DNA of 22,676 nucleotides from Saccoglossus kowalevskii (lineage: Eukaryota > Hemichordata > Enteropneusta > Harrimaniidae). The stretch covers positions 634,050 to 656,725 of the forward strand of contig NW_003133346.1 in the NCBI RefSeq assembly GCF_000003605.2, read 5' to 3'. Under the pieces are notes generated by a model. It was given only the letters and a program-made list of their open reading frames with translations, had not been told where the DNA came from and ran no database searches. A program made the position numbers and the translations under genes. This document shows, one piece after another, positions 6,248 to 22,676 of the stretch. The stretch's first letter is position 1. The number at the start of each line of letters is the position of its first letter.

Positions 6248-7012
6248 TAGCTCCGCTGTTATTCATGCACATTTCAATTAATGAACTGAAGGTATTATTA
6301 GAAAATGAACAACATGTATAGTATTAAAGCAAGCAGACTTGCTGTTTTGAAGAACAAAATCATCTCGAAATGAACAAATCTGAGAGGTCTACCTGTAGTA
6401 CCTATGTAGTTTATATAATATCAAAGCAATTAGACTTGTGGTTTTTAACAAGAAGTCGAAAATATCACTTTTTACCAAAAATGACAAAAATATTCATGAA
6501 AATTAGAGAATTAAAGATATCATCACGAAATGAACAAATCTGAAAGAGGTCTACATGTATTACCTAGATATGTAATATCAAAGCAATTGGACTTGTGGTT
6601 TTTAACAAGAAGTCGAAAATATCACTTTTTACCAAAAATGACAAAAATATTCATGAAAATTAGAGAATTAAAGATATCATCACGAAATGAACAAATCTGA
6701 GAGAGGTCCACATGTAGTACCTAGATATGTAATATCTAAACAATCGGACTTGCGGTTTTTAACAAGAAGTCGAAAATATCACTTTTTACCAAAAATGAAA
6801 AAAATATTCATCAAAATTAGAGAATTAAAGATATCATCACAAAATGAACAAATCTGAGAGAGAACCACCCAAGGTACCTTCCTGGAAAGTTTCACAGCTA
6901 TACAGTTTGTGGTTTTTAAGAAGAAGTCGAAAATGTAAAGTTGACGACGGCGACGCCGACAGACAATCAGTAATACTATAAGCTCCGCTCGACTTCGTCG
7001 ACAGCAGAGCTA
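6248..7012 (+). mobile_element. Non-autonomous transposable element with a 157-bp tandem-repeat core (Helentron/HINE-like)
   Basis: The left end reads TAGCTCCGCTGTT (about 6248-6260). The right end carries the inverted counterpart, GACAGCAGAGCTA (7000-7012). Just before the right end sits a palindrome, AGCTCCGCTCGAC-TTC-GTCGACAGCAGAGCT, giving a strong terminal hairpin. The interior is a tandem array with about three full and two partial units. There is no coding capacity. Short inverted ends, a central tandem array and a 3' hairpin are known features of Helentron-associated elements such as Drosophila DINE-1 and bivalve pearl-type elements. Class assignment is inference; a MITE carrying an internal satellite is the alternative. 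Confidence 0.6.
6421..6890 (+). repeat. 157-bp tandem repeat, about three full copies
   Basis: Units begin at 6421, 6578 and 6735 (each starting near TCAAAGCAAT, or its variant in the third copy), a constant spacing of 157 bases. They share blocks such as AACAAGAAGTCGAAAATATC and TTCATGAAAATTAGAGAATT with only scattered substitutions. A shortened copy precedes (about 6320-6420), and the start of another follows (about 6890-6935, GGTTTTTAAGAAGAAGTCG), running into the GACGACGGCGACGCCGACAG segment near the element's right end. Confidence 0.85.
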
Positions 7013-7390
7013 AAAATCAGTGAAAATAAATTCCATACAAAACACCCAAAAAGTATTTTCAGCTAAAATTAATTCCAGCTAAAATAAAGTATTTTACAGT
7101 ACGATAGTTACAATGTTGTCTACATTGAGCTTAATTATAGTGTGATACCTATATACAACCCATCGAAGAAGAAGAACTCGAGTACAAACAAGTTATGTAT
7201 TTAGTTCTATTCTGTTCATTGAAGTGTCAGTAAAATTGGTAAACAGTTGAGAATACATTGCTATATTGAAATCTATACAGCTCTCGTAATTATATATTAA
7301 GAATGATAAAGTTTTAAAGATGATCAAATTTGATGAAAACAACTGATCAACATAGCTTGTGTGCATGCGCCGCTGTAGTGTACAACTAAT
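7013..7390. other. Probable 3' UTR of the minus-strand lectin-like gene and intergenic sequence
   Basis: On the minus strand this follows the stop codon at 7393-7391. No canonical AATAAA was found on the minus strand here; an AATATA variant (about 7290) is the nearest candidate. The transcript end is therefore not fixed. Three short related AT-rich repeats (TCAGTGAAAATAAATTCC and similar) cluster at about 7017-7085. Confidence 0.35.
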
Positions 7391-7478
7391 TCATCCCGAG
7401 TAAACCTGGGATGTAGAACAGATATAGTTGGCTGTCATAGAACACACTTCATCTTCCCATACGAAGCCACCATTATTC
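7391..7478 (-). CDS. Coding exon 5: end of the C-type lectin-like domain and stop
   Basis: The acceptor TTTGTCTTTTCTCCAG is followed by one base that completes the split Trp codon from exon 4 (TG+G). The exon then reads NNGGFVWEDEVC and SMTANYIC, then STSQVYSG and TGA (7393-7391). WEDEVC occupies the place of the WND motif of sugar-binding CTLDs, and YIC supplies the final conserved cysteine (257). The exon is too short and too far from the main ORF to be seen by ORF finding. It is what makes the lectin-like domain complete. Confidence 0.9.
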
Positions 7479-10400
7479 CTGGAGAAAAGACAAATGACAT
7501 TACGTCACGTTAAACTGTATACTGCTGAAGAAAAGAGCCATTCAATCCGCGTGTAATTTGACATGACAACATGATGCCATGGCAACGTGATGTCATCATT
7601 TACTAGCTTAACTAACTCGATGTAATTATATATATATATTATTTGTGGATGTGTTGGGATAATGTATTTAATCCTACCATACTCACACCGAGTTAATATC
7701 GCATCCATTGTTAACAAATTAAAATACCCTCCACTCACCATTTTAAAAGTGCGCAGTCTTCATTATCATTCTGTGGCGTTACACCTGTCTCCCAGTTGTT
7801 GTAACAAACTTTATCACTTTTGGAATCGCCATACACCCATGTTCCCTCCGTGATTTTATCATTTCCTCCGAGCCAATAAGCGTTGAGTGGATCGAGATTG
7901 GTATTTAACAGTTGTTGCGTTCGACTGTCGATGATCTTGGCAAGGTACCCACCATCATTCTCGCAAGTGGTGGTAGACTCATCCCACGTTGCAGTATCTG
8001 AATGTATGGTATACGTCACGCATCGTCTGATGCCGTCTACATCGGGCAGTGTCGTAGTGACTTCTGCTGGTATTGCTGAAACGAACAAATAAACAACAAC
8101 AAAAAATAAACATATTTCTGCTAGCAACAATCGAAGTCCCTCAATGTTGAAGGACTGAGCAACAATGCAGAGGGTATAAGAGGGCGCTATTCCTGATACT
8201 AGCCCTGAGTACAGTCATGTAGGCTGGCCTCCTTCCGCTGATCATTCGGCTCCCACAGTCCAGAAAAGTCGCATAGACCGAGGATTCGACACCGTTTGAA
8301 GGGCTGTATCGGGCGATTTAAGAGGCATTCAGCTTTGCAGCTAAAAAATAAGCAGGTCAATACGTCTAACTATTCCAAATAACTTAACTGGAAGCTAAAT
8401 TACATATGATTTCTTATGGGGGCCAAATGATCAGCGGAAGGTGGCCAACCTACAGGACTGTATTCAGGACTATCCTGATACTCACGCTAGATATAACCAT
8501 GGAAGGTACTTCCATGATATAACGAAATGACGATGGAACAAAATTCACAAATTCTCTCGCCACTTCAACAATAGAATAGAATAGAATAGAATAGAATAGA
8601 ATAGAATAGAATAGAATAGAATAGAATAGAATAGAATAGAATAGAATAGAATAGAATAATGCTTTATTAATACCGTAAAGAAAGAGTTAACATTTCCTTT
8701 TAGGTTTTCAGATTAATAAAGTAAATAATAAAAGTACATGTACATGAAATGTAAAAATTGATTTAAAAAGAATTCAAAATTAGTGAACGACAAAAATACT
8801 ACAGACAATTATTAATAATATAAGAAATATTAAAATACTGTGATATGTAAGTATCACTGTATGTAGCATAGAATATGTAAAAAATATAAAAGAACATGAC
8901 AAAATAAAAGAATTAGTCTTGTTTAGATTTAACTAAATATTTGCAGAGAGTGATAAGATTGTTTGTATTTGGTGACTGTAGTACAAGTATAAATTGTTCA
9001 ATAGATGTCGTTGCACGAATTGAGATTAAAGTACTTTAAGGTTTATTTGTGTTGTGAGAAATATTTGATAACATATACGTGTGAATTACAAAAGTTATTA
9101 TATGGACCAAATCCCCCAATTTCTGCGATGTTTTTAGTGGCTCGTTTTAATCGTGTTCGCACGTACATTATGTATATTTACAAAGCCGCACTAAGTAGGA
9201 CGAACTCCCAACTATTTGCTGCAATTTGTATATATTCATTTCTGAACTCCGACTCAGTATTTTGAATAAAATACACAAGAACTGTCCGCAATAACAATTA
9301 CTAACTATGAACAAATACCTTATACGTGTGTAACTTTAGAGGGCGCTGGTCGCCATGGGAGCATTCAAATTTCGTGTAAACAAAGAATGTACAGTATAGT
9401 ATAGTATATTTTATTTGACTCAAATTAATGAATTGGAAGTACATTAACCATGGTCAATAACCATACACAAAAAAAAAAACAATAACAAGAAATACAGATA
9501 TTAAAACAAAATACTGTAAAATGTTAAAACAAATAACACTAACAACTATTAGGTATTACATTGTAAAATTATGTTAATAAACTTTCCTAGACTATTGGCA
9601 ATGAAACTGTCTTTTATTCCCATAATATGCACAAACATATCTTCTTTTGGTAATTTTAAAATATTATCATTGTATAATGATAGAGTATTCCAAAAGTAGC
9701 TACGTGCCTTTACAATTTCATCCAGTTTGCAGTCAAAAAGAGCATGCATTTCATCACCAACAGACTGATCAGAACACAGTGTGCAAAATCTTTGCTCTGA
9801 GGGTATTTTTTGGTATCTTAATTTTTCAATTGGTAATTTATGTGCTGAAATTCTAAATTTGGTTACACTTACTCTGTGATTTAAATTATTAATTTTATTC
9901 AGATATGGTTCAAATTCATAATCTGATTTGTATTTATTGTAAATACGTAGTTTATTAAGTTCCTTTTTGGAATAGAGTTGGCAACCAAATTTTTTCATAG
10001 TAAATTCTTTTAAGATTGTTTCTAAAAATGTTAGCATTATGATCCGTTTCATTTGATCGAGTTATTTCAAGTAGTTTGCTAACAAAGTTTGCCCATGAAT
10101 TACTATTGATTGTACACTTTTTACTCTTAACCAAAACTTGTACATTTAGGTACAAATTTCAGTAATTAGGGGATAACTACCAAGCTCTGCTCTAACAGCA
10201 ATATTACATGCCCTTTTGTNNNNNNNNNNNNNNNNNNNNNNNNNNNNNNNNNNNNNNNNNNNNNNNNNNNNNNNNNNNNNNNNNNNNNNNNNNNNNNNNN
10301 NNNNNNNNNNNNNNNNNNNNNNNNNNNNNNNNNNNNNNNNNNNNNNNNNNNNNNNNNNNNNNNNNNNNNNNNNNNNNNNNNNNNNNNNNNNNNNNNNNNN

Positions 10401-13400
10401 NNNNNNNNNNNNNNNNNNNNNNNNNNNNNNNNNNNNNNNNNNNNNNNNNNNNNNNNNNNNNNNNNNNNNNNNNNNNNNNNNNNNNNNNNNNNNNNNNNNN
10501 NNNNNNNNNNNNNNNNNNNNNNNNNNNNNNNNNNNNNNNNNNNNNNNNNNNNNNNNNNNNNNNNNNNNNNNNNNNNNNNNNNNNNNNNNNNNNNNNNNNN
10601 NNNNNNNNTGTCACTCCTGCATTAGGCCAATTTAAAAAGAAGTCCTTCTCTCCAAACACTATGTAATGTATGTTACGTCACGTGCGTTGTACAACGTCGC
10701 ATGAGACCCTCACCGAACAAGACACAGCATGACGACAACCGCCTTTTACTATATAAAAGACATATTGAGAATATGGACAATGAGGAAATATTGTTATTGA
10801 TTTAGAATTTTCAAATACGATGACAGGGGGTTGCCACATCTCACGGACATTAAGTGAGGGGAGGCAAGGGGGTAGCTGGTACGGTTTTACGGGAAATAAA
10901 AAGGCCGTTTTACAATTTACAAGGGAAAAAAGACGTTTTTACAGTTTACAGTGTTAAAAAAGGAACATTGAATGGTCCGAAGAGCTCTCCGACTCAAATT
11001 CTCCGCCATTGCTGCGCCGTGTGTAGAGATGCACGCGCATATTACCCTCATAATGCTCTTCATTCGGTTAGAGGGCCTTTTACGTCTTGACATTCAATTT
11101 TATAGTGAATTTTGTCATCTTAGTCGTTTTACAGTTTCTTATAATGTAATTTCCCTGGATTATTCTTTACGATTTTTTTATTTGGATGTAAATCCTTGTA
11201 CGTACCGAGAAAAATGGCACATTTTTACAGTGTACGAAAAAAATATTTGATCGATTACGTTGTACGTCTAGCCTGTGATTACAGAATTACGGAATTTATT
11301 TTTTCAATTTACGTAGTACGAACAAAAAAATATTGCAATTACGTTGAACGAAAATAACCCTTGCCCCCCCCCCCTCATTGATGGGTAGAGTCACTACAAC
11401 TTTTGCTGGAATTTTGAGAGTGTGCACGGGGAAAGACTGTGGAAACATATATAGGAAACTACTACGATAATGAATAACACAATGTAACCCACCTTCGCAA
11501 TCGAAGTCATTCGACAGGTTGATGCATGTAAACCCCGGTCCACACGGCTCATCAGCGCAATGGTCAACCTCAACTATAAAAAAAACCATAGTGAAACTAT
11601 AAGAACTTTGCCCTTGCTTAATCTCAACTTTTTGTCACGAATTAAAGAATGATACAATCTAAACTATCCAATAATTGTGACACTTTCATTCCTAACATAG
11701 ATTGAAATGAAACTGTCCAATGAAAACTATTTAAAATAGGTTCGCCCTCTAGTGGCAAAACGTTTTCGTGACGTAAATTGGCTTAAGGGATATCATTTCC
11801 AGCTTTTTTATTGTTTTAATTTGGAATTGCCCGTTAATAAAGAATTACTATACCAGTATTCTAAATGACCAGCGGCTATATAATCACTTTTTTTATATTT
11901 CTGACACCGATCTACACATAGTTGGCGCCAGGGAAGCTCAAAAGAAGGCACAATTTATAGAAAAGCAGTACAAAGTACATTATCTAGATACTTCATACGA
12001 ATTTTGCTTTATTGAAGCCCCTAATTTGTTGTCTGAGATTCAAGTGACAAGTAGAAAAAGAAGGGTAGAAAAGTAAAATTTATAACGGACGCTCATCGCG
12101 AGAGACACCCACCGTGACACCTACCGGATGCATGACGCCACCTAGTCCCCGAACGAACAGACAGCAAGTCAATATCATTTTATTATATTAAAGATCAAGG
12201 TCCAAAATGATTTGAAAAAGACGTCATTCTAAGTTATAACATTAGAACAACAAACAATGAACAACTTTTCGAGAAACAAGAGTCAGAGTGGTCTTTGAAA
12301 AAATGCAAGTTGACTGTGATGAAAGTATAGGCTGGATGTGTTACACATTGATATTGATGTGAATCTTAATATTGTTACACGTTATTGAGCCCCAATCTGA
12401 GAAAGTTGTTTATGGAAATGTTTCTCCCACAATGCATTGAACACACGCTCGGTATCGTGCTCAGTAGATGATAGTTACCGCAATTGAGTCCACATTGTAC
12501 GCTTGGCAAGTCATCGGGATCACAGCCTTCACCGGGGTATATGTATACTTCATAATTCACACAAGTAGCGACATTATCCGGCGGATTATGGAACTGTTCG
12601 CAAATAGTACAGTCTTCGGTGCAAGTAGGCGGAAAACTCATCCACTCTACAATCTCACAATCATAGTCCTGGGGTGGGTCTACCAGACGAGAGGTCACGA
12701 CTATCTGAAAATATACCGTTGTTCACGAATGACGTCAATGAGCATTACGTCATATGATTAATTCGGAGAAACAACAAATAAGATAACAAAAAATGATATT
12801 TAAACATATTGTATACATTTGTATCTTGAATTCCAATGTGTTTATCAACATGATTGTTTAGTCATTTTTAAAGAAAAATCATATATATCTGATCATTCTT
12901 TGAACATCTTAGAACTGTGAGAGGAACACACTGTTTGATGAGCTTTTGTAAATATTTTTCATAATTTGTTCTAAATATAATTTGTGCAATACACTTTGTT
13001 TTTCATTACATTGCAGCACATGCAAGTGTTTACCATACTGAGTACATTTTGCAACATAGACTACATTCACGTGTTTTTCGTTTATGACAGTGCTGTGCAG
13101 TCATTTATATACTGGTATCAATCAGGTCTAGTTGAACACAAGAATCTGCGGACCCTATCTAAGCTTTCCCTAAAGTCGCACATGGTAGGTCTTTTAATGG
13201 TTGGCTTTTAATGACCGGTAAATTGTACATAGATCATTCAAGTAAGTGCATTAATATGTTAGATTGTTTTTAATAAGGATCACTATCAACCTATGTGTAC
13301 TACACTATCAACCTATGTGTACTACACTATCAACCTATGTGTACTACACTATCAACCTATGTGTACTACATTATCAACCTATGTGTACTACACTATCAAC

Positions 13401-14930
13401 CTATGTGTACTACACTATCAACCTATGTGTACTACACTATCAACCTATGTGTACTACACTATCAACCTATGTGTACTACACTATCAACCTATGTGTACTA
13501 CACTATCAACCTATGTGCACTACACTATCAACCTATGTGTACTACACCGTGGTAGTTGATTATAGTATATTGTATGGACAACAAATCGATAAATCAGTTA
13601 TGCAAATTATTAGAATGTCTCTGGTCTAATTATTTCCTCCAATGTGATATTCAAGTAAACATATCCAGAAATGGTGCGACGAATGGTAATGGTAATGTTC
13701 GTACCAAACGTTATTATTTCATCGAATGAATTCTAGCTGCGTGCCGACGACAACGTTACATAAAAACACAATTCATAATTCAATAATTAAATTTAAAAAT
13801 TACATCTTTCATTCATATTGCATTCCGAATAATATCAAATTTTTTTTTTTTGTCTGACAGTGAAACACATTTGAGCATATATTTTTTGTCATCAAACTTA
13901 ATGACTGAATTTTTTAAAAGTCTTGCATCGTTCAACATCGCACATTGTTCAACTTTTACACGCCATGAGCTATACAGGCGAAGCGATATGTCAACGAAAA
14001 CTAAAAATAATTAGAATATAATTAGATTTTTTTTTTTTAAATTAAAAGTAACTTGGCTTCTAACTATGATTAATGTTTATAAAATATTCTAAAATGTCAG
14101 ACCTCGTATTCGGAGAGAGTCTGAGATCGAAAGGTTTAGTGGTCAACTGTTCATGTAAAAAATCGAAAATGTGAAGGCGCACTATCATCTTCATTACATT
14201 TCTAACCAGATCTTAGAGTGTAAGTAAGTTTAATTACTAGTATTAAAGTAAATTGATATTTTTTTTAATTTTTTTACCATAGAGATTTCGCTGTTCGACG
14301 CTTCAGATTTATGTCATGTCTATTTTTTTCAGAAATGTTCTTGAACAGCGCTAGTTCTGTGACAAAACCTGCAACGATACTGTCCTTAGAAAGTGTTTAA
14401 CTAATGTTTCGTGAGAGTGTGGACTAGAACGGTACACATAAAGATGGAATAAACTGCTCAGCGCGTGCTTTATTATGGTTCATTTGAAATTTACGACACC
14501 ATGGACCAGAGCTGACGTACAAATTGTCAGGTTACAAAGTTCAATTTTTCTCCCGTTATTGCAACCATTTTCAACGACTTTCAAAATACAATGTAGTTGT
14601 TTCTGCCTAATGTCGGATTCATTCGTGGAAATTTTGAGCACTACTTAATGATTTAATTTAATTTAATTAATTTATAAAGCCTTTGGAGACGACAGACGAC
14701 AATTAGTAAACGATAAGAAATACAATTGTTAGAAGAATAAGGGTGTCAGCGCCATAGTTACGGTAATCGGGTGATACGGAAAACATCGTGACAACAAACC
14801 GACTTGGTTTTTGGTTTTAAAATACACACAGGTCGGGATTACAAATATTATGAAACTGACTCACCGATCGAACACATGTGAGAGAAGATACGAACACCCA
14901 CAGCAATATGCAAAAATATACACTGGTCAT
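7391..14930 (-). CDS. Secreted protein: signal peptide, TSR-like module, half EGF, C-type lectin-like domain (265 aa, five coding exons)
   Basis: Five minus-strand exons join in frame: 14930-14865, 12704-12479, 11573-11493, 8075-7739 and 7478-7391. They total 798 nt, exactly 266 codons, with ATG, stop, GT-AG at every intron and matching phases 0,1,1,2. The product has a signal peptide (1-22), an eight-cysteine thrombospondin-type-1-like module (38-97), a four-cysteine EGF-like segment (103-123) and a C-type lectin-like domain (143-257). The 8-residue tail carries no membrane anchor, so the protein should be secreted; recognition or adhesion is the likely role (inference). No function is proven. 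The third coding intron contains the assembly gap, so a further phase 1-1 exon could be missing. I do not recognise this domain combination as a named gene. Confidence 0.75.
7739..8075 (-). CDS. Coding exon 4: main part of the C-type lectin-like domain
   Basis: Acceptor GTTCGTTTCAG (phase 1 start) and donor AAATG/GTGAGT (phase 2). It encodes residues 126-236 plus part of codon 237. A short Thr-rich linker (VTTTLPDVDG) precedes the fold. Hallmarks are TWDESTTTC (154-162), GGYLAKI (166-172), WLGGNDKITEGTWVY (192-206, the WIGL-type motif plus strand), NNWETG (217-222) and NEDC (229-232). The position that normally reads EPN or QPD before NEDC is TPQ (224-226), so canonical calcium-dependent sugar specificity is not predicted. 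Extra cysteines at 143 and 215 could pair with each other. Confidence 0.9.
8191..8481. mobile_element. Inverted-repeat (MITE or foldback type) element, about 290 bp
   Basis: The left arm (8191-8256) and right arm (8417-8481) are imperfect inverted copies of about 65 bases. They share GATCAGCGGAAGG, GGCCARCCTACA and GACTGTAYTCAGG. The 160-base interior has no open frame. The element lies in the third coding intron, ending about 115 bases upstream of the acceptor of the CTLD exon. A transposon family cannot be named by eye, and no clear target-site duplication is visible. Confidence 0.7.
8571..8659 (-). repeat. (ATAGA)n pentamer microsatellite, LINE 3' tail
   Basis: About 17 nearly perfect pentamers. 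On the minus strand the array reads (ATTCT)n and is immediately preceded by ATTAATAAAGCATT. That is the arrangement of a non-LTR retrotransposon 3' end, in which the reverse transcriptase reiterates a short tail. Confidence 0.85.
8660..9300 (-). pseudogene. Degenerate 3' fragment of a non-LTR retrotransposon (LINE fragment 1)
   Basis: The minus strand just upstream of the pentamer tail reads as the very C-terminus of a LINE ORF2-like protein: IQNTESEFRNEYIQIAANS, then WEFVLLSAAL and a stop, then YVRTRLKRATK in the same frame. The rest, down to 8660, is 3' UTR-like. No zinc-finger or reverse transcriptase block remains, so this is a 5'-truncated, inactive copy. The right boundary is approximate. 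Confidence 0.55.
9391..10219 (-). pseudogene. 3' fragment of a LINE with C-terminal zinc-binding domain (LINE fragment 2)
   Basis: A minus-strand frame at 10052-9549 ends in a typical non-LTR retrotransposon C-terminus. It has HRVSVTKFRISAHKLPIEK, a basic stretch (RYQKIPSEQRF), then a zinc-knuckle-like CTLC-x(9)-H-x(4)-C (CTLCSDQSVGDEMHALFDC), as in zf-RVT tails. The upstream part (10155-9990: SWANFVSKLLEI and FRNNLKRIYYEK) is in another frame. The frames meet in an A-run near 9991-9996, so one indel breaks the ORF. A TATAC-type pentamer tail at 9393-9410 marks the 3' end. The 5' part enters the assembly gap. Inactive. Confidence 0.8.
10220..10608. other. Assembly gap (389 N)
   Basis: A run of unknown bases inside the third coding intron of the minus-strand gene, abutting LINE fragment 2. 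It may hide more of the LINE, another repeat, or an additional phase 1-1 exon such as the second half of the EGF module. Open frames running through it are artefacts. Confidence 0.99.
10609..11360. repeat. Intron segment with recurring TTTAC-type motif, probably a decayed repeat
   Basis: Between about 10880 and 11345 a loose motif, TTTACRGTKTACR, recurs about nine times at irregular spacing (for example GTTTTTACAGTTTACAGTG near 10935, TTTTTACAGTGTACG near 11221, GATTACGTTGTACG near 11257, CAATTTACGTAGTACG near 11306). A C-run of 11 follows at 11363-11373. Open frames here (10854-11090, 10972-11250) lack domains. A palindrome, CGTTGTACAACG, lies at about 10685-10696. It looks like an old dispersed repeat of unknown class. 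Confidence 0.35.
11493..11573 (-). CDS. Coding exon 3: half EGF-like module
   Basis: An 81-base exon with acceptor TTTTTTATAG and donor CGAAG/GTGGGT, phase 1 at both ends, as is typical of shuffled extracellular modules. It encodes HCADEPC-GPGFTC-INLSNDFDC (residues 102-123), matching the first four cysteines of an EGF domain (spacings 4, 5, 8). The usual C5 and C6 are absent. Either the domain is truly shortened, or the second half is on an exon in the 10220-10608 gap. Splicing directly into the CTLD exon keeps the frame. Confidence 0.75.
11742..11755 (-). promoter_or_regulatory. CTCF-like motif
   Basis: The minus strand reads CCACTAGAGGGCGA. This matches 13 of 14 positions of the known CTCF core CCASYAGRKGGCRS. 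It lies in the intron between exons 2 and 3 of the lectin-like gene. Binding is not shown; such words are also carried by repeats. Confidence 0.35.
11756..12478. other. Intron 2 of the lectin-like gene, otherwise featureless
   Basis: AT-rich intron sequence between coding exons 2 and 3, with no supported exon, repeat or RNA. Confidence 0.5.
12479..12704 (-). CDS. Coding exon 2: eight-cysteine thrombospondin-type-1-like module
   Basis: The acceptor TATTTTCAG gives a phase-0 start that matches exon 1. A second AG four bases further in would break that frame. The donor is TTGCG/GTAACT, phase 1. Residues 23-97 hold Cys 38, 50, 54, 57, 70, 83, 93 and 97. The layout CE-x3-W (38-43), then C-TED-C (50-54), a late G-x-G-C (80-83), and the closing C-GLN-C (93-97) follows a thrombospondin type-1 repeat. 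However, only one of the usual tryptophans and none of the stacked arginines is present, and there are two extra cysteines. TSR-like is therefore an inference from spacing. Confidence 0.65.
12730..12752. promoter_or_regulatory. Pair of CRE-type sites in intron 1
   Basis: A perfect palindromic TGACGTCA (12730-12737) and a TTACGTCA (12745-12752) lie 15 bases apart, about 25-48 bases upstream of the exon 2 acceptor on the minus strand. This is the form of a CREB/ATF site pair. The intronic position makes a promoter role doubtful; an enhancer or chance are both possible. Confidence 0.25.
13282..13545 (+). repeat. 12-copy 22-bp minisatellite
   Basis: The unit ACTATCAACCTATGTGTACT+AC is repeated exactly twelve times. 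Only two substitutions are evident (a T in copy 5, GCAC for GTAC in copy 11). The right flank carries a partial inverted copy (GGTAGTTGATTATAGT). Homogeneity implies recent expansion. It lies in intron 1 of the minus-strand gene. Confidence 0.97.
13546..14864. other. Intron 1 of the lectin-like gene, right part
   Basis: AT-rich, with homopolymer runs and a short (AATTT)n tract at about 14650-14670. No exon, RNA gene or recognisable repeat family is seen. Confidence 0.5.
14865..14930 (-). CDS. Coding exon 1: signal peptide
   Basis: ATG at 14930-14928 opens 22 codons and the exon ends at donor TCG/GTGAGT (phase 0). The residues, MTSVYFCILL followed by WVFVSSLTCVRS, have a hydrophobic core and small residues near the end, typical of a cleaved signal peptide. 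The ATG has A at -3. An AG lies one base before the exon body (TTGCAG/G-ATG), so the ATG probably sits at the start of an exon whose 5' UTR is spliced from further upstream. An out-of-frame ATG lies just 5' (within ATGTTGCAGG), which would be intronic under that model. Confidence 0.7.
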
Positions 14931-15250
14931 CCTGCAACATATACATAGTTTTTAGATATAAAGTTAATTGCCCGTTCAACTCGACAGATGAAAAAAACAC
15001 ATATGGTCATTATAGTTCCAACCAACAGCCCACAGCAACAACTGACATTACTTTTACAAATTCAAATACTAGTAAGTGTAGAACAATGCTTTTAGTGTCC
15101 GACAACTGAACACAAACTCGCTGTAATCTTTAGAACTACCATGTAATCTTATGGATTGTAAAAATTATATTAAATTTTAATTTTTTTAATTATAACTTCA
15201 CAGTTACTGTACTGCACTGAGCAAAAACGAAGCTAATGACGACCACCTAC

Positions 15251-15412
15251 CTTGTTTCCGTGGCGTTAGATTGTCGATGTGCGTCTCTTAAGTAACTCCT
15301 GCTAGATATCCAACGCCTCACTTGTTCACACTTGGTGTTCCGTGGAGACTATGGTATGTACAGCAGGTATACCACGTGTCGGCATATGTGTTCGTTGATC
15401 GTCATATATATA
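15251..15412 (-). promoter_or_regulatory. Candidate proximal promoter and 5' UTR exon of the lectin-like gene
   Basis: On the minus strand a TATATATATATG tract (about 15402-15413) is followed by roughly 150 bases and then a good splice donor, AACAAG/GTAGGT (exon end 15251). Splicing to the AG at 14933-14932 would put the exon 1 ATG one base after the junction. This is inference from motif order only. The TATA-like tract may be a simple microsatellite. Confidence 0.3.
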
Positions 15413-16376
15413 TATGAATATATACACCCCGATATTATATAGTTTAATTAGTTTTCGATATTTTCAATACCCGAGGGTCAGGATGGCAAAAAACACGATT
15501 TGCCAGTTTTAGAATATTAACGGAACACAAGATTTGAGTAATTTCCTCCCTCGTCACTTCATTAAGCACGTAAAATGACTTGTTGGTTATGCTTCGTCGG
15601 TTGTTTCTAGCTTATTTCCATAGTATCGTGCTTTTGACAATCATCTGACATGCGTACCACTATCACGCAGCGTTAATTATGTTCTAAAGCTGAACAAAGT
15701 ATATATATGATATACAATACAGAACGTGTTAAAATATTTAGTTTAACCATATGTCGAATTCATTATTTTGTGACATTAATTTATTTACCGGTTCGGAAAA
15801 TGAAAAAAAAAACGAATCATTTTATAGAAATTTGACATAATTTTAAGACACCTCTCAATGTCACGTGGTACGGACAACTTTTCGCATGTTGTTTGTCACA
15901 GGTATACCTTGAATAGTAAGGTGGTTTGCGCTGGCACGATTCGTAAATTCATTCACTTAATAAATTATAAACTGGGGTTAGCCAGATACACTTGACCCAT
16001 TGTTACACTTCACACTTTCATCAGAATACTATCACATATTAATGGGCGTGGCTACAAAGTGAGAGTCGAGCCCGAGAACAAATAGATGCAACTGCACATG
16101 GCGTTCTAAGAACATATTATATTATTGAATGGAACTTTTTTGTTATCGGCATACCAATTCTCGCATGGGAGTCACCGTGACGGGGTTTAACAAACCACAT
16201 ACACTGAAAGCCGTATTTTTCCCTTTTCAGCCTTAAAACATGTAACATGTATATACGGACCCACCTGTGGACATATATCAACTTCTTCACTTACACGAAC
16301 AAAATATAGAATTTTGTTGAAAGAAAATATTTTTTCCTCGGGATTAGATTACAATTCAGGTGAATTCGAAATTTAC

Positions 16377-16544
16377 CTGATGTATTGATGAAGATGAAGA
16401 ACAACTGGATAGACAGGACTGTCTAAATCCGACGAGACTGTTCTATATAATAAAGTGCAGTTTTCGCAATTTTGTTTTTCGTATAACACGTTAGTATCAT
16501 GCTTCAGACGTCAGCCAATTACGCTTCAGACGTCAGCGAATCAC
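16377..16544 (-). promoter_or_regulatory. Candidate distal promoter: tandem CRE/CCAAT-type boxes, TATA box and donor
   Basis: On the minus strand two 22-base tandem copies (16523-16544 and 16501-16522) each carry GCTGACGTCTGAAGC, which includes the CRE half-site TGACGT. One copy adds ATTGG (inverted CCAAT). About 50-60 bases further on is TTATATAGAA (16442-16451), and about 70 bases after that is a donor, CATCAG/GTAAAT (exon end 16377). Spacing fits an upstream element, TATA box and short 5' UTR exon that could splice to the exon 1 acceptor. It is the better of the two promoter candidates, but the sequence alone does not prove it. Confidence 0.4.
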
Positions 16545-17224
16545 GCGAAGAAGACATGTATACTTCATATATAGTGGAGGACTAACTGCCACCTAAACAA
16601 TTAAAGATTGTACGATCTTTATTTACCCGCCAAAAAATATCGAATACAAGATAAATACGCAGTAACTGGACACAGTCTGAAATATTGCCTTTGTCATCAC
16701 GTGACTGTATGTACCATACGGCAGCGCTACACTACAATTGACTAACTGATTTCATGTAAATTAGCATCAATAGTGGTATCGGTACCAATTTAAATCAGAC
16801 CTAATTACTTTCAATTATTTGCTGGAGTCACCTTATTGCAACGCTGAATATTCCATAAATTGAAAGAGAATTGATATCTTTGTGGATGTACATCTTCTGG
16901 ATGGTTAATTCAGTTCATGCATCACATACGCCTCTCCTCGCATAGAGTAATCTGAACACTCTCTATTAAACTGAGACATAATTAGTTCGAATGCGCTACT
17001 GTGATTGGTCAGAATGACAGACGCGCGATGCATAAATAAAATATAGCATTATATTGCGTAATTAACAGTATATGTTTTTTAAACAAACAACAAAACACGT
17101 CAGTAATACTTTATTCTGTAGATGATGCCATAGAATACAAAGTGTCTATCATGACGTCGACCATGGGGCAGTATGAATCTCGTCTGTGTATATGCCTCTA
17201 TTGTCTAAGTATTTTATAATGGCA
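16545..17224. other. Upstream non-coding region, nothing convincing
   Basis: AT-rich intergenic sequence between the candidate distal promoter and the GC-rich hairpin. No gene, RNA or repeat family is recognised. Confidence 0.45.
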
Positions 17225-17331
17225 GTCGTCGCGCCGCGTTCTGTTCGACATGGGACTCATAGCGACGAATACAACGCGTGTAAAATACATTGTTTATTTA
17301 CATGAAATTCGAACACAAGCTGCGCGACGAC
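17225..17331. repeat. GC-rich inverted repeat (hairpin)
   Basis: The left arm GTCGTCGCGCCGCGTTCTGT+TCGA (17225-17248) is complementary to the right arm ending GCGCGACGAC (17309-17331), with about 20 paired positions around a 60-base loop. CpG density is conspicuous in AT-rich surroundings. It has no coding potential. It could be a transposon end pair, a structured RNA or a regulatory island. Confidence 0.7.
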
Positions 17332-17339
17332 CGACCACC

Positions 17340-17710
17340 GCGCTTTAAGTTCAGCCATATCTATAGGGACTAATCATGTCCTGTGAAGTTTTTCTAGAAG
17401 ACCATGACGTTCTGTGCAGCACGAGAAGCTGAAAAGTTACGGACTTCGAGATACAAAAAGAACACGCCATATTTTAGAATCCACGCCCCAATTGTAATTC
17501 GATTTTCAATTAACAGTTAACAGAACTTCGAGTTATGGGCAACATACCATGGCTCAGCCATGCTATGAGGGTTTACTGGTCTTGTGAAGTCTTCAGAGAG
17601 CACCACCCTGCTATATACAGTATTCATATGTCAATTGGGTTTCAGACATACCATATGAGAGTTTACTCTGTCTTGTGAAGTCACCCTAACTGACCACCCA
17701 CATTTATTTT
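17340..17710 (+). repeat. Degenerate tandem units around TTGTGAAGT
   Basis: A motif of about 50 bases (CATACCATATGAGAGTTTACT, then GTCTTGTGAAGTC and ACCACCC) occurs at about 17640-17700, more diverged at about 17550-17610, and weakly at about 17350-17405. The two clear units are about 92 bases apart. The block partly overlaps direct repeat B1. Confidence 0.5.
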
Positions 17711-17773
17711 TAACCTTTTCAATCTTTAGTAACTTGACCAAAAATCAAATCATCGACACCTAACATTGTGCCC
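17579..17773 (+). repeat. Direct repeat B, copy 1
   Basis: About 195 bases, starting GTCTTGTGAAGTCTTCA and ending ACATTGTGCCC. They recur at 19274-19474 with few substitutions and a 6-base indel (TATATACAG versus TATATACTAGTACAG). No open frame is shared between the copies. Confidence 0.95.
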
Positions 17774-17920
17774 TTTATTAAAACAACTGACAATATTTAT
17801 ATAGGAAACAATTCAAGATTCCGTGTACATTTCGCATCAATCTTAAACGAAATCGCTTCACATAGAATATTGATTTTGTATTACTGCTCCATCTTAGATC
17901 ATCCATTACAAAGCATCCAT

Positions 17921-18299
17921 AGCACTGGGGCTTTTCAACTGACGGCGAATCTTCCGTGCCAGCACGAAGTGAGAGAAGGGAGGGCACTCCTCAGATGACG
18001 TCATGTGGTACACAGTGTAACTCACAAAAATTAAATATAGTATATTGTCGACACATTTACACCACAGCCACGATCAAATCACGCAAATATGGAATGACGC
18101 AAATAAAACACGTTTGAAGGGTCTCCCCTGTACGAAAATGACCATCACAACCATTAATTTGATGCTGATTGGCGGAAATAGCTGTGTATCACTGGCTAAA
18201 ATTCAGATAATATTTAGCTGTGACATCATCTGGGGTGAGGAGTGTCCTTCTTTCTCGCACTAGGGGATTCGCTGTCAGTTGACAAGACCCTGTGGTGCA
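17921..18299. mobile_element. Inverted-repeat element, about 380 bp (MITE-like)
   Basis: The left arm (17921-18003) and right arm (18221-18299) are imperfect inverted copies of about 80 bases. They share TCAACTGACRGCGAATC, GAGAAAGAAGG-type purine tracts, CACTCCTC and an inner AGATGAYGTCA. The roughly 217-base spacer has no coding content. The left arm carries a perfect TGACGTCA (17996-18003). The form suggests a foldback or MITE element; the family is unknown. Confidence 0.65.
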
Positions 18300-19065
18300 T
18301 TAACGATTCCAGTGTGCAATTCAGTGTCTCAACGACACTCAAAGATGCCGTTAACTCAATCATAACCGAACGTATGAAACTATTGGCAGGGCACTTCTAA
18401 CGCAGATAGCGTAACTGTCATTGTACAGCATCACAGGACATGCCAAAGTGTTACCGACAATACAACTTCAAGCAGTACACGAGTAATATAACCGGACAAT
18501 TCAGATAATCATGGGCGTTTGGGAATTTTGACGCTGGATGGGCCACTTCAATGACATTCACGTCGACACAGGAACGGATCATGAATATAACATATTAAAA
18601 ATGAAATTATTGTTGGGCTTTACGTCCGAGTCAAAAAATATTAAAAGCGTTTAGAAACCACCACTCACTGAGCTTTGAATCGCGAATTATTTTATTGATA
18701 TAATCAGCGGCAAAAGTCGATATCGTTAGATATTATTATCGAACATGTTCTCACATGAGAAATTTTTAAATTACAAAATCTTTCATCAACTCGAGCAAGG
18801 ACTTTGGAATTATCGTCAAACGGCAGAACAAACACAATTTTGGGGAAATTTACCTGCGTTCTTTGCAACCTTTAATAATCAGTTCAATGTGTGTCTATAT
18901 ACAGAGCTACCGGTAAAAGGATTGTTGTGTTGCATTGTTTGTTAAATAATTGTTGTATTGTAGAAACATACGTCACATACGTAATACGAAAACAATATGC
19001 CAAACATTGGCATTACGATGAGTCAGACCGCATTCCGAAGTGCAGCAGCAAAACAAATCACACCA
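18300..19065. other. Intergenic, nothing convincing
   Basis: The open frames at 18745-18945 and 18891-19082 show no domain. No repeats or RNA were seen. Confidence 0.45.
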
Positions 19066-19273
19066 CACACCGTGTGCGGTAAGTTGACTTCAAACCGGAC
19101 GGAGTTCAAATTAACTAATTCAGGGAACGTTTTGTATAAAAAAAACACATAGAAATTGTATTGCTATAACGAGATCAATAAACTACCCGAGATGTGAATA
19201 TGACTCACATAAAAAGACTCACTCTTTCCATAACACAGGCTTAATCAGTACATAACATTTAATCGGATATCCA
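19066..19273 (+). repeat. Direct repeat A, copy 1
   Basis: Begins CACACCGTGTGCGGTAAG and ends AATCGGATATCCA. It is nearly identical to 19476-19698 except for one substitution in the TTCAAATTAAC block and expansion of a TA/A tract. It directly abuts repeat B copy 2. Confidence 0.95.
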
Positions 19274-19474
19274 GTCTTGTGAAGTCTTCATAGAGCACCA
19301 CCCTGCTATATACTAGTACAGTATTCATATGTCAATTGGGCTGCAGACATACCATATGAGAGTTTACTCTGTCTTGTGAAGTCACCCTAACGAACCACCC
19401 AAATATATTTTTAACCTTTTCAATCTTTAGTAACTTGACCAAAAATCAAATCATCGACACCTGACATTGTGCCC
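19274..19474 (+). repeat. Direct repeat B, copy 2
   Basis: Second copy of the 17579-17773 segment in the same orientation, sandwiched exactly between two copies of repeat A, with no unique sequence at either junction beyond about one base. Confidence 0.95.
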
Positions 19475-19475
19475 G

Positions 19476-19698
19476 CACACCGTGTGCGGTAAGTTGACTT
19501 CAAACCGGACGGAGTTCAATTTAACTAATTCAGGGAACGTTTTGTATATATATATATATAAAAAAAAAAAAACATAGAAATTGTATTGCTATAACGAGAT
19601 CAATAAACTACCCGAGATGTGAATATGACTCACATAAAAAGACTCACTCTTTCCATAACACAGGCTTAATCAGTACATAACATTTAATCGGATATCCA
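19476..19698 (+). repeat. Direct repeat A, copy 2
   Basis: Second copy of 19066-19273. It is longer because of a (TA)n and A-run expansion at about 19545-19572. After ATATCCA the sequence becomes unique (TTTAATATCTG). Confidence 0.95.
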
Positions 19699-21274
19699 TT
19701 TAATATCTGAAGTAGCAACAAATATAACTAAATTACAACTGCCATATAAAACATTTCTTGTTCAGGTGAATTTAAAAACAATTAAGATAATTGTTATATG
19801 GGCGACATCTTTTAGATATTATATACATACGTACCACTAACGGACATACAAGTAATGGTATAATATGTATTTATAACATTGACATTTTAACGGAATTTTA
19901 CGTATACATATAAATATAAATATAATACACAGAACCAGCTTGACGAAATGCACCACTAACCCGCCACCAACCCATCTAATTTCACAATCACAACAGTATT
20001 TTAATAATTAGGACATCCTGATAATAATTTAATGACTTAATAAAATTGAACCTTCGAACTCCCGCCTCCTATGGAAATATTACGATTCTCATTAGTATTC
20101 TGAGGAATATGATCCGTTATTAATTATAATAAATCGTTTGTATATTATATTGGTTTACAAGTCCACGTCTATTACAAGATAAGTTCGAATTAAATATGCT
20201 CACGCAAAACGGAAAACTAAGTAATCATGGAACATAAACATTCACCATGACGATTTATATCGTCCCAGGATGTATTCTCATATTAACAGTGCAAGGGATT
20301 ATGATCTCAAGAGAACGTAATGTTGAAACAAACTAGTCCCGTCAAATTATGGACAGAAATTTTGTTAATTTGGCAAAAATATAGCTTTATGTCTAATGTA
20401 CAGCATTCCGACTATTTATGTTGTCGCCTTTTTTTAGCCCAGTCCGGTCAATAATATTGCGAGTTGCGCTTTCAATCGACGGGGCTATACATATCGGCAG
20501 AGAATGGAATAATTACAACTTGGATTCTACTGGTTCGAACAGAATTGTTGCCGTTTTCGACCGACATCAATTATTTGAAATAGCGTTGCAGTATTTGTGA
20601 AATGTATCATTAACGTAGAATAAATCGCCAACCCTACAAGAAAATGAGTTATTTTTTAATTGTAAAGCACATTCTAAATTCAAAAATCAAAATGTTGCCA
20701 GAAACGTTGCAAACATTTTAATATCAGTTTTCGTTTTTTTTTGTAATTTTCAAAACAATTCTCCAAAATCGAAACACTCTGGTCACCATTATTCAAAAAA
20801 TGCAACATTTGCATATTTTACGTATTTTTTATGACTTTTGATCAAATAGACTCAATTTTCATTGGCTACAAAATTGTATTGTGAAATAATGACAAGAGTT
20901 GGTTAAAGTCTCCTTGTAATTAAATTAAACAAACTAGACTCAGTGAGACACGTGACACGTCGACTGACATGAGTACATCAACCAGAGATAGTGTTAGTCG
21001 GTCAATAATATTGATAAATTTACATAATAAACGTTCATGCCTACATGAAATACATTGGAATGATGGCCTATAAGACAAAACACATGACAAATCAAACTTT
21101 GTTACAATCAGAATATTACACCTAACCAAAATTTGGATGACAGGGCTGCGTGGGGTGGGGTGAAGGATGAAGAGAAAACATGCGACACTTTGACGAGAAA
21201 CATTGACAGTGGGACACAGCAGTATCTTAGATTTTGTTTATACACCATCCCTTCTTTTTAAGCGCTTAGTATCC
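19699..21274. other. Intergenic; probable 3' UTR of the EAR gene at its right end
   Basis: AT-rich, without supported exons. Downstream of the minus-strand stop at 21277-21275 no canonical minus-strand AATAAA was found; ATTAAA-type variants occur near 20655 and 20717. The 60-codon frame at 20418-20600 has no recognisable feature. Confidence 0.45.
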
Positions 21275-22335
21275 CTATGGTGTTGGAGCCCATCTATAGA
21301 GGGCGTCAAGCCCACTTCCAATTTCAGGTATCAATATTAGATATGTATCACCTTGGTAACTGAATATATGACATGCTTGGAATTTCCCGCCAGTTTGATA
21401 GAGAGATTCAATATCAAATTCAGTTATTCGGGGTCGGAAAACCTCCGAATAGAACAAGCCATTTGATGTAACAAGCACTGGATAGTGGTCGATTACAAAA
21501 GTACACATACTACCGTCGGCTTTGTTCATAAAGGCATATGAGGGCGAGAAATCCATTGGCGTGAAATCACCGTTCTGCCAGACATGCGCGAATGCCGCGT
21601 CACGATAAGTGACCAATATCGGTGTACATTGGAAAGTGAATGTGGAAAAGCCATGCGTTTCACTGATGGTGGTTGTAGGGGTGTAACTCTGAAATTCCGT
21701 TCCGTCTGCAGTTAACTGGTACATGTCGACATCCATGGCTGTTCGGGCAAACAACAGGTAAGTTGTCTGGTAGTCTGTAAAGAAGGTCGACTCGAACGCT
21801 CTATTGGTGGGAATGTTCTGAAAATGGTCGAACGTGTCGGTAATTGGATTCCACTTCGCGACCACGCTGTCAGCAATAACCACCGTCGAACCCCCAGTCT
21901 GGAAGACCGTCAACACGAGAAATCTCCCGTGCGAAGTACTGAAAAAGTTAAAATGCATGCCAACTCCAAATGGATTATTATCGAGCTCCACAAATTTCGA
22001 ATCAACGGAACTCCACTCGAAAATTGTTGAAACGCCTGGACCGACTGATACTGCCACCGCTAAAAATTGCCGATCGCCAATGACGAATGGTTCTATATGT
22101 GATACATACTCCATTGAGTGTCCGTTAAAGAAATCGCCAGTGATTAATTGCACGAAACCAGTGTTGTCGAACTTATACACGCGGACAACGTCAGTGCTGG
22201 TGGCGCCACTCGTCAGGACGTAGAGTTCGTGATTGATTGTAAATGACGTAATTCGAATGACCCCACTATTATCTAGTTGGTTACTGATGGTCACCGGTGC
22301 AAATTCTCCGTTTATCTCACTCGTTTCCGCGTCAC
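21275..22335 (-). CDS. Terminal exon of an EAR (EPTP) repeat protein: complete seven-blade beta-propeller
   Basis: The exon starts after CTATCACAG (phase 1) and runs 1061 bases to TAG at 21277-21275, giving 352 residues. After a short lead (GDAETSEINGEFAPVTISN) there are seven repeats of about 43-54 residues. Repeats 2-7 open with F-x-x-[LMFYE] (FVQL, FVEL, FDHF, FQSY, FTPM, FDIE) and most close with an aromatic such as VYKF, FEWS, VAKW, HVW or YRWAPTP. Epilepsy-associated repeats form a seven-bladed propeller in LGI1, TSPEAR and ADGRV1 and bind extracellular partners. The chain ends right after blade seven, as in LGI and TSPEAR. The upstream part (signal peptide plus LamG, LRR or other) is beyond the window, so the subfamily cannot be chosen. 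Confidence 0.9.
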
Positions 22336-22676
22336 CTGTGATAGATATATAAAAAAACGAAAGTTTTAACCACATGGATCATATTTAATATAAGAACTGT
22401 CCTTGTACCGGTGTGAATTTTTGGTCTTTAGCTAGAGATTTCACAAATTTATTCATAAAAGAAATTATCATATAAAACAATAACATTGACACGGTAGGGC
22501 CAATCTAGATCCATGGCTAAGTACTGTTTAACATTGCATTGATGCCAAATTACTAGTACTAGAATAAATCGCACTTTTACTAAAATCGAATGCTAGCAAG
22601 TGTAAATATATTCCCAGCATGTGTGACTTGTATCATCTGTCCTTTACCTCCATGCGTGTATGTATGTATCTATGTA
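22336..22676 (-). other. Intron upstream of the EAR exon
   Basis: Intron sequence on the minus strand, with no further exon identified. A short (GTAT)n microsatellite reaches the right edge (about 22655-22676). Confidence 0.55.

Follow-up and report, generated by a model that had tools for sequence, protein, structure and literature searches.

A probable five-exon minus-strand gene of Saccoglossus kowalevskii with a C-type-lectin-like domain behind cysteine-rich modules

We analysed a window of 22,676 nt from the hemichordate Saccoglossus kowalevskii (assembly GCF_000003605.2, contig NW_003133346.1, positions 634,050 to 656,725 of the forward strand). It contains a five-exon gene on the minus strand whose product carries a C-type-lectin-like domain (CTLD; Table 1) and, on the same strand and ~6.3 kb upstream of its start codon, the end of the coding sequence of an EPTP (EAR-repeat) gene (21275-22378, minus strand; Pfam EPTP 40.4 bits, TAG at 21275), any further exons of which lie off the window. 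Intron 1 of the CTLD gene holds a 22-base minisatellite (13281-13547; twelve copies, 98% matches), and intron 3, the longest at 3417 bases, holds a perfect AATAG microsatellite (8570-8658; 17.8 copies), a reverse-transcriptase-like remnant and an assembly gap.

Table 1. Exons of the CTLD gene and features of its introns and 5' end, in coordinates of the window.
Feature	Position	Strand	Description
Exon 1	14930-14865	minus	66 nt; 22 codons with the ATG and a signal-peptide-like segment; phase-0 donor
Exon 2 (borders less certain)	12704-12479	minus	226 nt, ~75 aa; eight cysteines; phase 0 to 1
Exon 3	11573-11493	minus	81 nt; symmetrical 1-1 exon; four cysteines
Exon 4	8075-7739	minus	337 nt; Lectin_C 44.8 bits by itself
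Exon 5	7478-7391	minus	88 nt; one base of the W237 codon, last 28 residues, TGA
Assembly gap	10220-10608		389 N, inside intron 3
Reverse-transcriptase-like remnant (C-terminal end)	9552-10061	minus	in intron 3; zf-RVT 17.7 bits, below the 27.5 cut-off
Acceptor-like AG/G, one base before the ATG	14931-14932	minus	score 7.19; exon would begin at 14931

Extracting and joining the five exons gave 798 nt that run from ATG to TGA with no internal stop and encode 265 amino acids; all four introns begin with GT and end with AG, in phases 0/1/1/2. The structure proposed in the initial annotation (five minus-strand exons with GT-AG borders, these phases, and 266 codons from ATG to TGA) is thus borne out. 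Base composition follows the same borders, with a GC content of 0.409-0.519 in the exons vs. 0.325-0.354 in the introns. As far as can be judged from sequence, the gene is real, and the case supports the view that the small first and last exons of a gene are readable from raw sequence.

Closure by itself is weak proof of this model, since three further models with identical exons 3-5 likewise close. Two of them begin at 14946 or 14940, leave the first donor unchanged, and use an inner exon 2 acceptor at 12679 (262 or 260 aa), and the third uses an inner donor at 12533 (247 aa), which leaves five of the eight cysteines of exon 2 and drops three. By generic matrices, the inner acceptor at 12679 scores 7.6 vs. 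4.9 for the border at 12704, and the inner donor at 12533 scores 7.3 vs. 6.6 for the border at 12479; given these two inner sites, the borders of exon 2 are less certain. We prefer the start at 14930 because its hydrophobic core scores 3.08 vs. 2.47 for the alternative start, and the donor at 12479 preserves all eight exon 2 cysteines; the models via 12679 or 12533 are less likely. A scan of 12705-22600, with minima of 4 for the donor score and 1.8 for the hydrophobic core, returned ten ATG-to-donor starts, four of them in phase 0, and among these four the exon 1 start has both the top donor (9.6 vs. 4.4-5.0) and the top core. The acceptor-like AG just before the ATG suggests an upstream non-coding 5' exon.

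We compared the splice sites of the model with all 1454 GT and 1042 AG sites on the minus strand, using generic matrices that are untrained on this species. On this scale the donors of exons 1-4 rank 7, 46, 3, and 4 among the GT sites, and the acceptors of exons 2-5 rank 96, 73, 9, and 1 among the AG sites. From phase and site strength we infer the links between exons 1 and 2, 2 and 3, and 3 and 4. The junction of exons 4 and 5 lies well beyond chance, since the match to the Pfam family Lectin_C rises from 44.8 bits for exon 4 alone (profile positions 3-85) to 56.9 bits when exon 5 is added (positions 3-106 of 107).

A Pfam search with the whole protein reported one family, Lectin_C (PF00059; residues 153-258, E 1.6e-14, 55 bits where the cut-off is 22.6). 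Four core cysteines (C162, C232, C249, and C257) fall in the places aligned with the C1-C4, C2-C3 scheme, with pairing that is predicted, so the CTLD label of the initial annotation stands. Eight residues separate the last CTLD cysteine from the stop. The protein has two extra cysteines, C143 and C215, which are not known to have a partner in the canonical CTLD scheme. A PDB search at E up to 10 yielded 90 distinct sequences, and among the best 60 of these 90, macrophage mannose receptor 1 and tetranectin (CLEC3B) lead. The CTLDs of macrophage mannose receptor 1 give the top match (E 1.1e-17, spread over three stretches), but that receptor has several CTLDs vs. one here, and no membrane-like stretch follows residue 22 in the present protein.

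Tetranectin matches across the domain (E 2.3e-10), and in the alignment Q226-N227-D228, E230, and W244-E245-D246 stand opposite its Q-P-D, E, and W-F-D; the Q-P-D, E, and D of tetranectin are calcium ligands, and each has a Q-x-D, E, or D opposite it. The two proteins differ in that an asparagine replaces the proline of QPD and two cysteine-rich modules precede the CTLD here; tetranectin carries a trimerising coiled coil. The canonical sugar-binding motifs EPN/QPD and WND are absent from the CTLD, which has QND (or TPQ) and WED in their stead. The Q-N-D reading hinges on how the domain is aligned. P225 (in T224-P225-Q226) is the only nearby proline; were it the cis-proline, TPQ would be the motif instead, which makes calcium binding by the CTLD uncertain. 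Active variants of the EPN/QPD and WND motifs are listed for bivalve lectins in PMC12842671, where several of the lectins with such non-canonical motifs are reported as Ca2+-dependent and some as Ca2+-independent; QND does not occur in that paper.

The product of the five-exon gene is probably secreted. Its 22-residue start has a hydrophobic core of 3.08, and beyond residue 22 no membrane anchor is evident in 19-residue hydropathy windows, the best of which has a mean of 0.37. Together with the Lectin_C match, these observations support, at the level of "probably", the description of the product in the initial annotation as a secreted CTLD protein.

The two modules in front of the CTLD are harder to name. 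The initial annotation called exon 2 TSR-like, and its eight cysteines, where a TSR has six, fit a spondin-type TSR spacing; 17 of 20,000 shuffles also fit, a figure that is not a fair probability, as the pattern was written after seeing the exon. The other marks of a TSR are absent: neither WxxW nor RxR, both named among TSR features in the accessible parts of PMC7663992, is present in exon 2, and at E up to 10 (with HMMER filters that drop most matches above 0.1) no TSP1/TSR Pfam family was reported for the whole protein or for exon 2 alone, nor any PDB chain for exon 2. The sole Pfam line for exon 2 is WDR90 (E 0.16; 11.5 bits vs. a cut-off of 50), which we took as noise. Similarly, exon 3, labelled "half-EGF" at the outset, has four of the six EGF cysteines in a spacing that is fairly described as an EGF first half, but no C5/C6 pair adjoins its C4 and it has no Pfam match. 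Until relatives or a structure become available, cysteine-rich is a safer name for both front modules than TSR or EGF.

Our preferred reading, which we consider reasonably probable, is one animal gene of five exons that encodes a C-terminal CTLD behind a cysteine-rich and a four-cysteine module. We hold it with reserve because of the other closed models and because of an acceptor at the gap edge. This acceptor-like site (score 7.3; exon start at 10616, minus strand) lies 8 bases before the 389-N gap in intron 3, with a phase-1 frame open into the gap; the gap could hide an exon, and this acceptor makes that a real possibility. The model would then be incomplete, with the second half of an EGF module or more EGF/TSR exons in the gap or missed elsewhere, and the true product would be a somewhat longer, ordinary EGF-CTLD protein. 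Such an outcome is possible, if on the doubtful side. Exon 3 is a 1-1 exon that ends after the fourth EGF-like cysteine, and an extra 1-1 exon would keep the frame; the frame nevertheless closes without one, and a scan of the readable introns for 1-1 exons with cysteines (43 candidates, mostly versions of known exons) gave none that we judged EGF-like, so we set aside an exon for a second EGF half within the readable sequence of intron 3. In addition, the gap lies ~0.9 kb from exon 3 and ~160 bases from the reverse-transcriptase-like sequence, and may itself be an unresolved repeat.

The same intron raises the question of whether two genes are present, one with exons 1-3 and one with exons 4-5, separated by 3.4 kb with a transposon remnant. 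Intron 3 is the longest of the four and holds both the remnant and the gap, and no Pfam profile match crosses the junction of exons 3 and 4; we nonetheless regard two genes as quite unlikely, since exon 4 has a strong phase-1 acceptor (rank 9 of 1042) that matches the donor of exon 3, also in phase 1 (rank 3 of 1454). Five acceptors score at least 5 in 8076-11400. Used for a terminal exon behind exon 3, three of them give tails of 6, 6, and 0 residues; of the other two, one lengthens exon 4 and the other runs into the gap. With tails this short, we set aside a gene end within the readable sequence of intron 3. We likewise set aside the idea that exon 4 has a signal exon of its own, as the open hydrophobic frame just above exon 4 lacks an ATG. 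Scanning 8076-14864 for signal-like starts (donor at least 3, hydrophobic core at least 1.6) gave eleven, and only two of them have phase 1, namely exon 3 itself (with an ATG in its polypyrimidine tract) and a start at 12178 with a weak donor (4.8). We consider it very unlikely that the locus is a CTLD pseudogene or a degenerate gene copy. The TSR- and EGF-like modules are degenerate, the QND/WED motif is non-canonical, and no A[AT]TAAA poly-A signal was seen on the minus strand in 6300-7391; against this, all five exons are open, every border is intact, and the CTLD is far above the Pfam cut-off with its core cysteines kept.

Returning to the single five-exon gene, its 22-residue start would be cleaved to give a secreted protein of ~243 residues, in which a cysteine-rich module at the N-terminus would be followed by a short module with four cysteines, a short linker, and the single C-terminal CTLD. 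The protein would be exported and would fold by disulfide formation in the secretory pathway; its front modules may form a stalk or docking surface stapled by disulfides. The upper loops of the CTLD may recognise a ligand, either with help from Ca2+ or unaided, and this ligand could be a galactose-type glycan or another protein. The likely setting would be extracellular matrix, mucus, or immune recognition. Both ligand and setting are tentative, far more so than the gene and its domains.

Related sets of domains are described in other animals. Invertebrate adhesive, skeletal, and immune proteins carry C-type lectin, EGF, and TSP1 domains, as far as the accessible literature describes them. For example, excerpts of PMC6410801 give this toolkit for the adhesive proteins Mlig-ap1 and Mlig-ap2, and those of PMC7333891 give the same toolkit for limpet mucus proteins. 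These proteins are far larger: the regions of Mlig-ap1 span thousands of amino acids (PMC6410801, in the same excerpts) and the limpet C-type-lectin-like proteins have 1113 and 1854 amino acids (PMC7333891, likewise), vs. 265 for the whole protein here. CTLD architectures are diverse in animal immune repertoires; in Mnemiopsis, CTLDs are combined with EGF, Ig, and Sushi domains (PMC11797021), a likeness in domain content. In the accessible literature on the architecture we found no named family of this size and domain order, and an NCBIfam search returned no family. Pattern searches matched none of the viral contigs, and in bacterial and archaeal genome contigs 11 stretches match a pattern, none of which encodes a relative.

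The protein adds one CTLD member to a large known class, and its status is that of an ordinary CTLD protein, perhaps lineage-specific. A bolder reading is that it represents a compact family restricted to its lineage. A TSR remodelled by an additional cysteine pair and by loss of the Trp/Arg ladder, together with a stable, free-standing half-EGF, would have turned into a fixed stalk that carries one CTLD, whose calcium site would be QND/WED; we regard this as unlikely. If the half-EGF and the altered TSR are real and conserved, they would offer a small example of shuffled modules degrading into new stalks.

Scans of the whole window for tRNAs and, at gathering scores, for Rfam families gave no matches, and the remaining features that we observed are repeats. 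A tandem repeat with a 157-base unit, in about three copies, occupies 6359-6934, 3' of the CTLD gene. Between the CTLD and EPTP genes there are two pairs of direct repeats, 17616-17773/19317-19474 (158 bases, 96%) and 19138-19273/19563-19698 (136 bases, 99%), which perhaps reflect recent mobile-element or segmental duplication.
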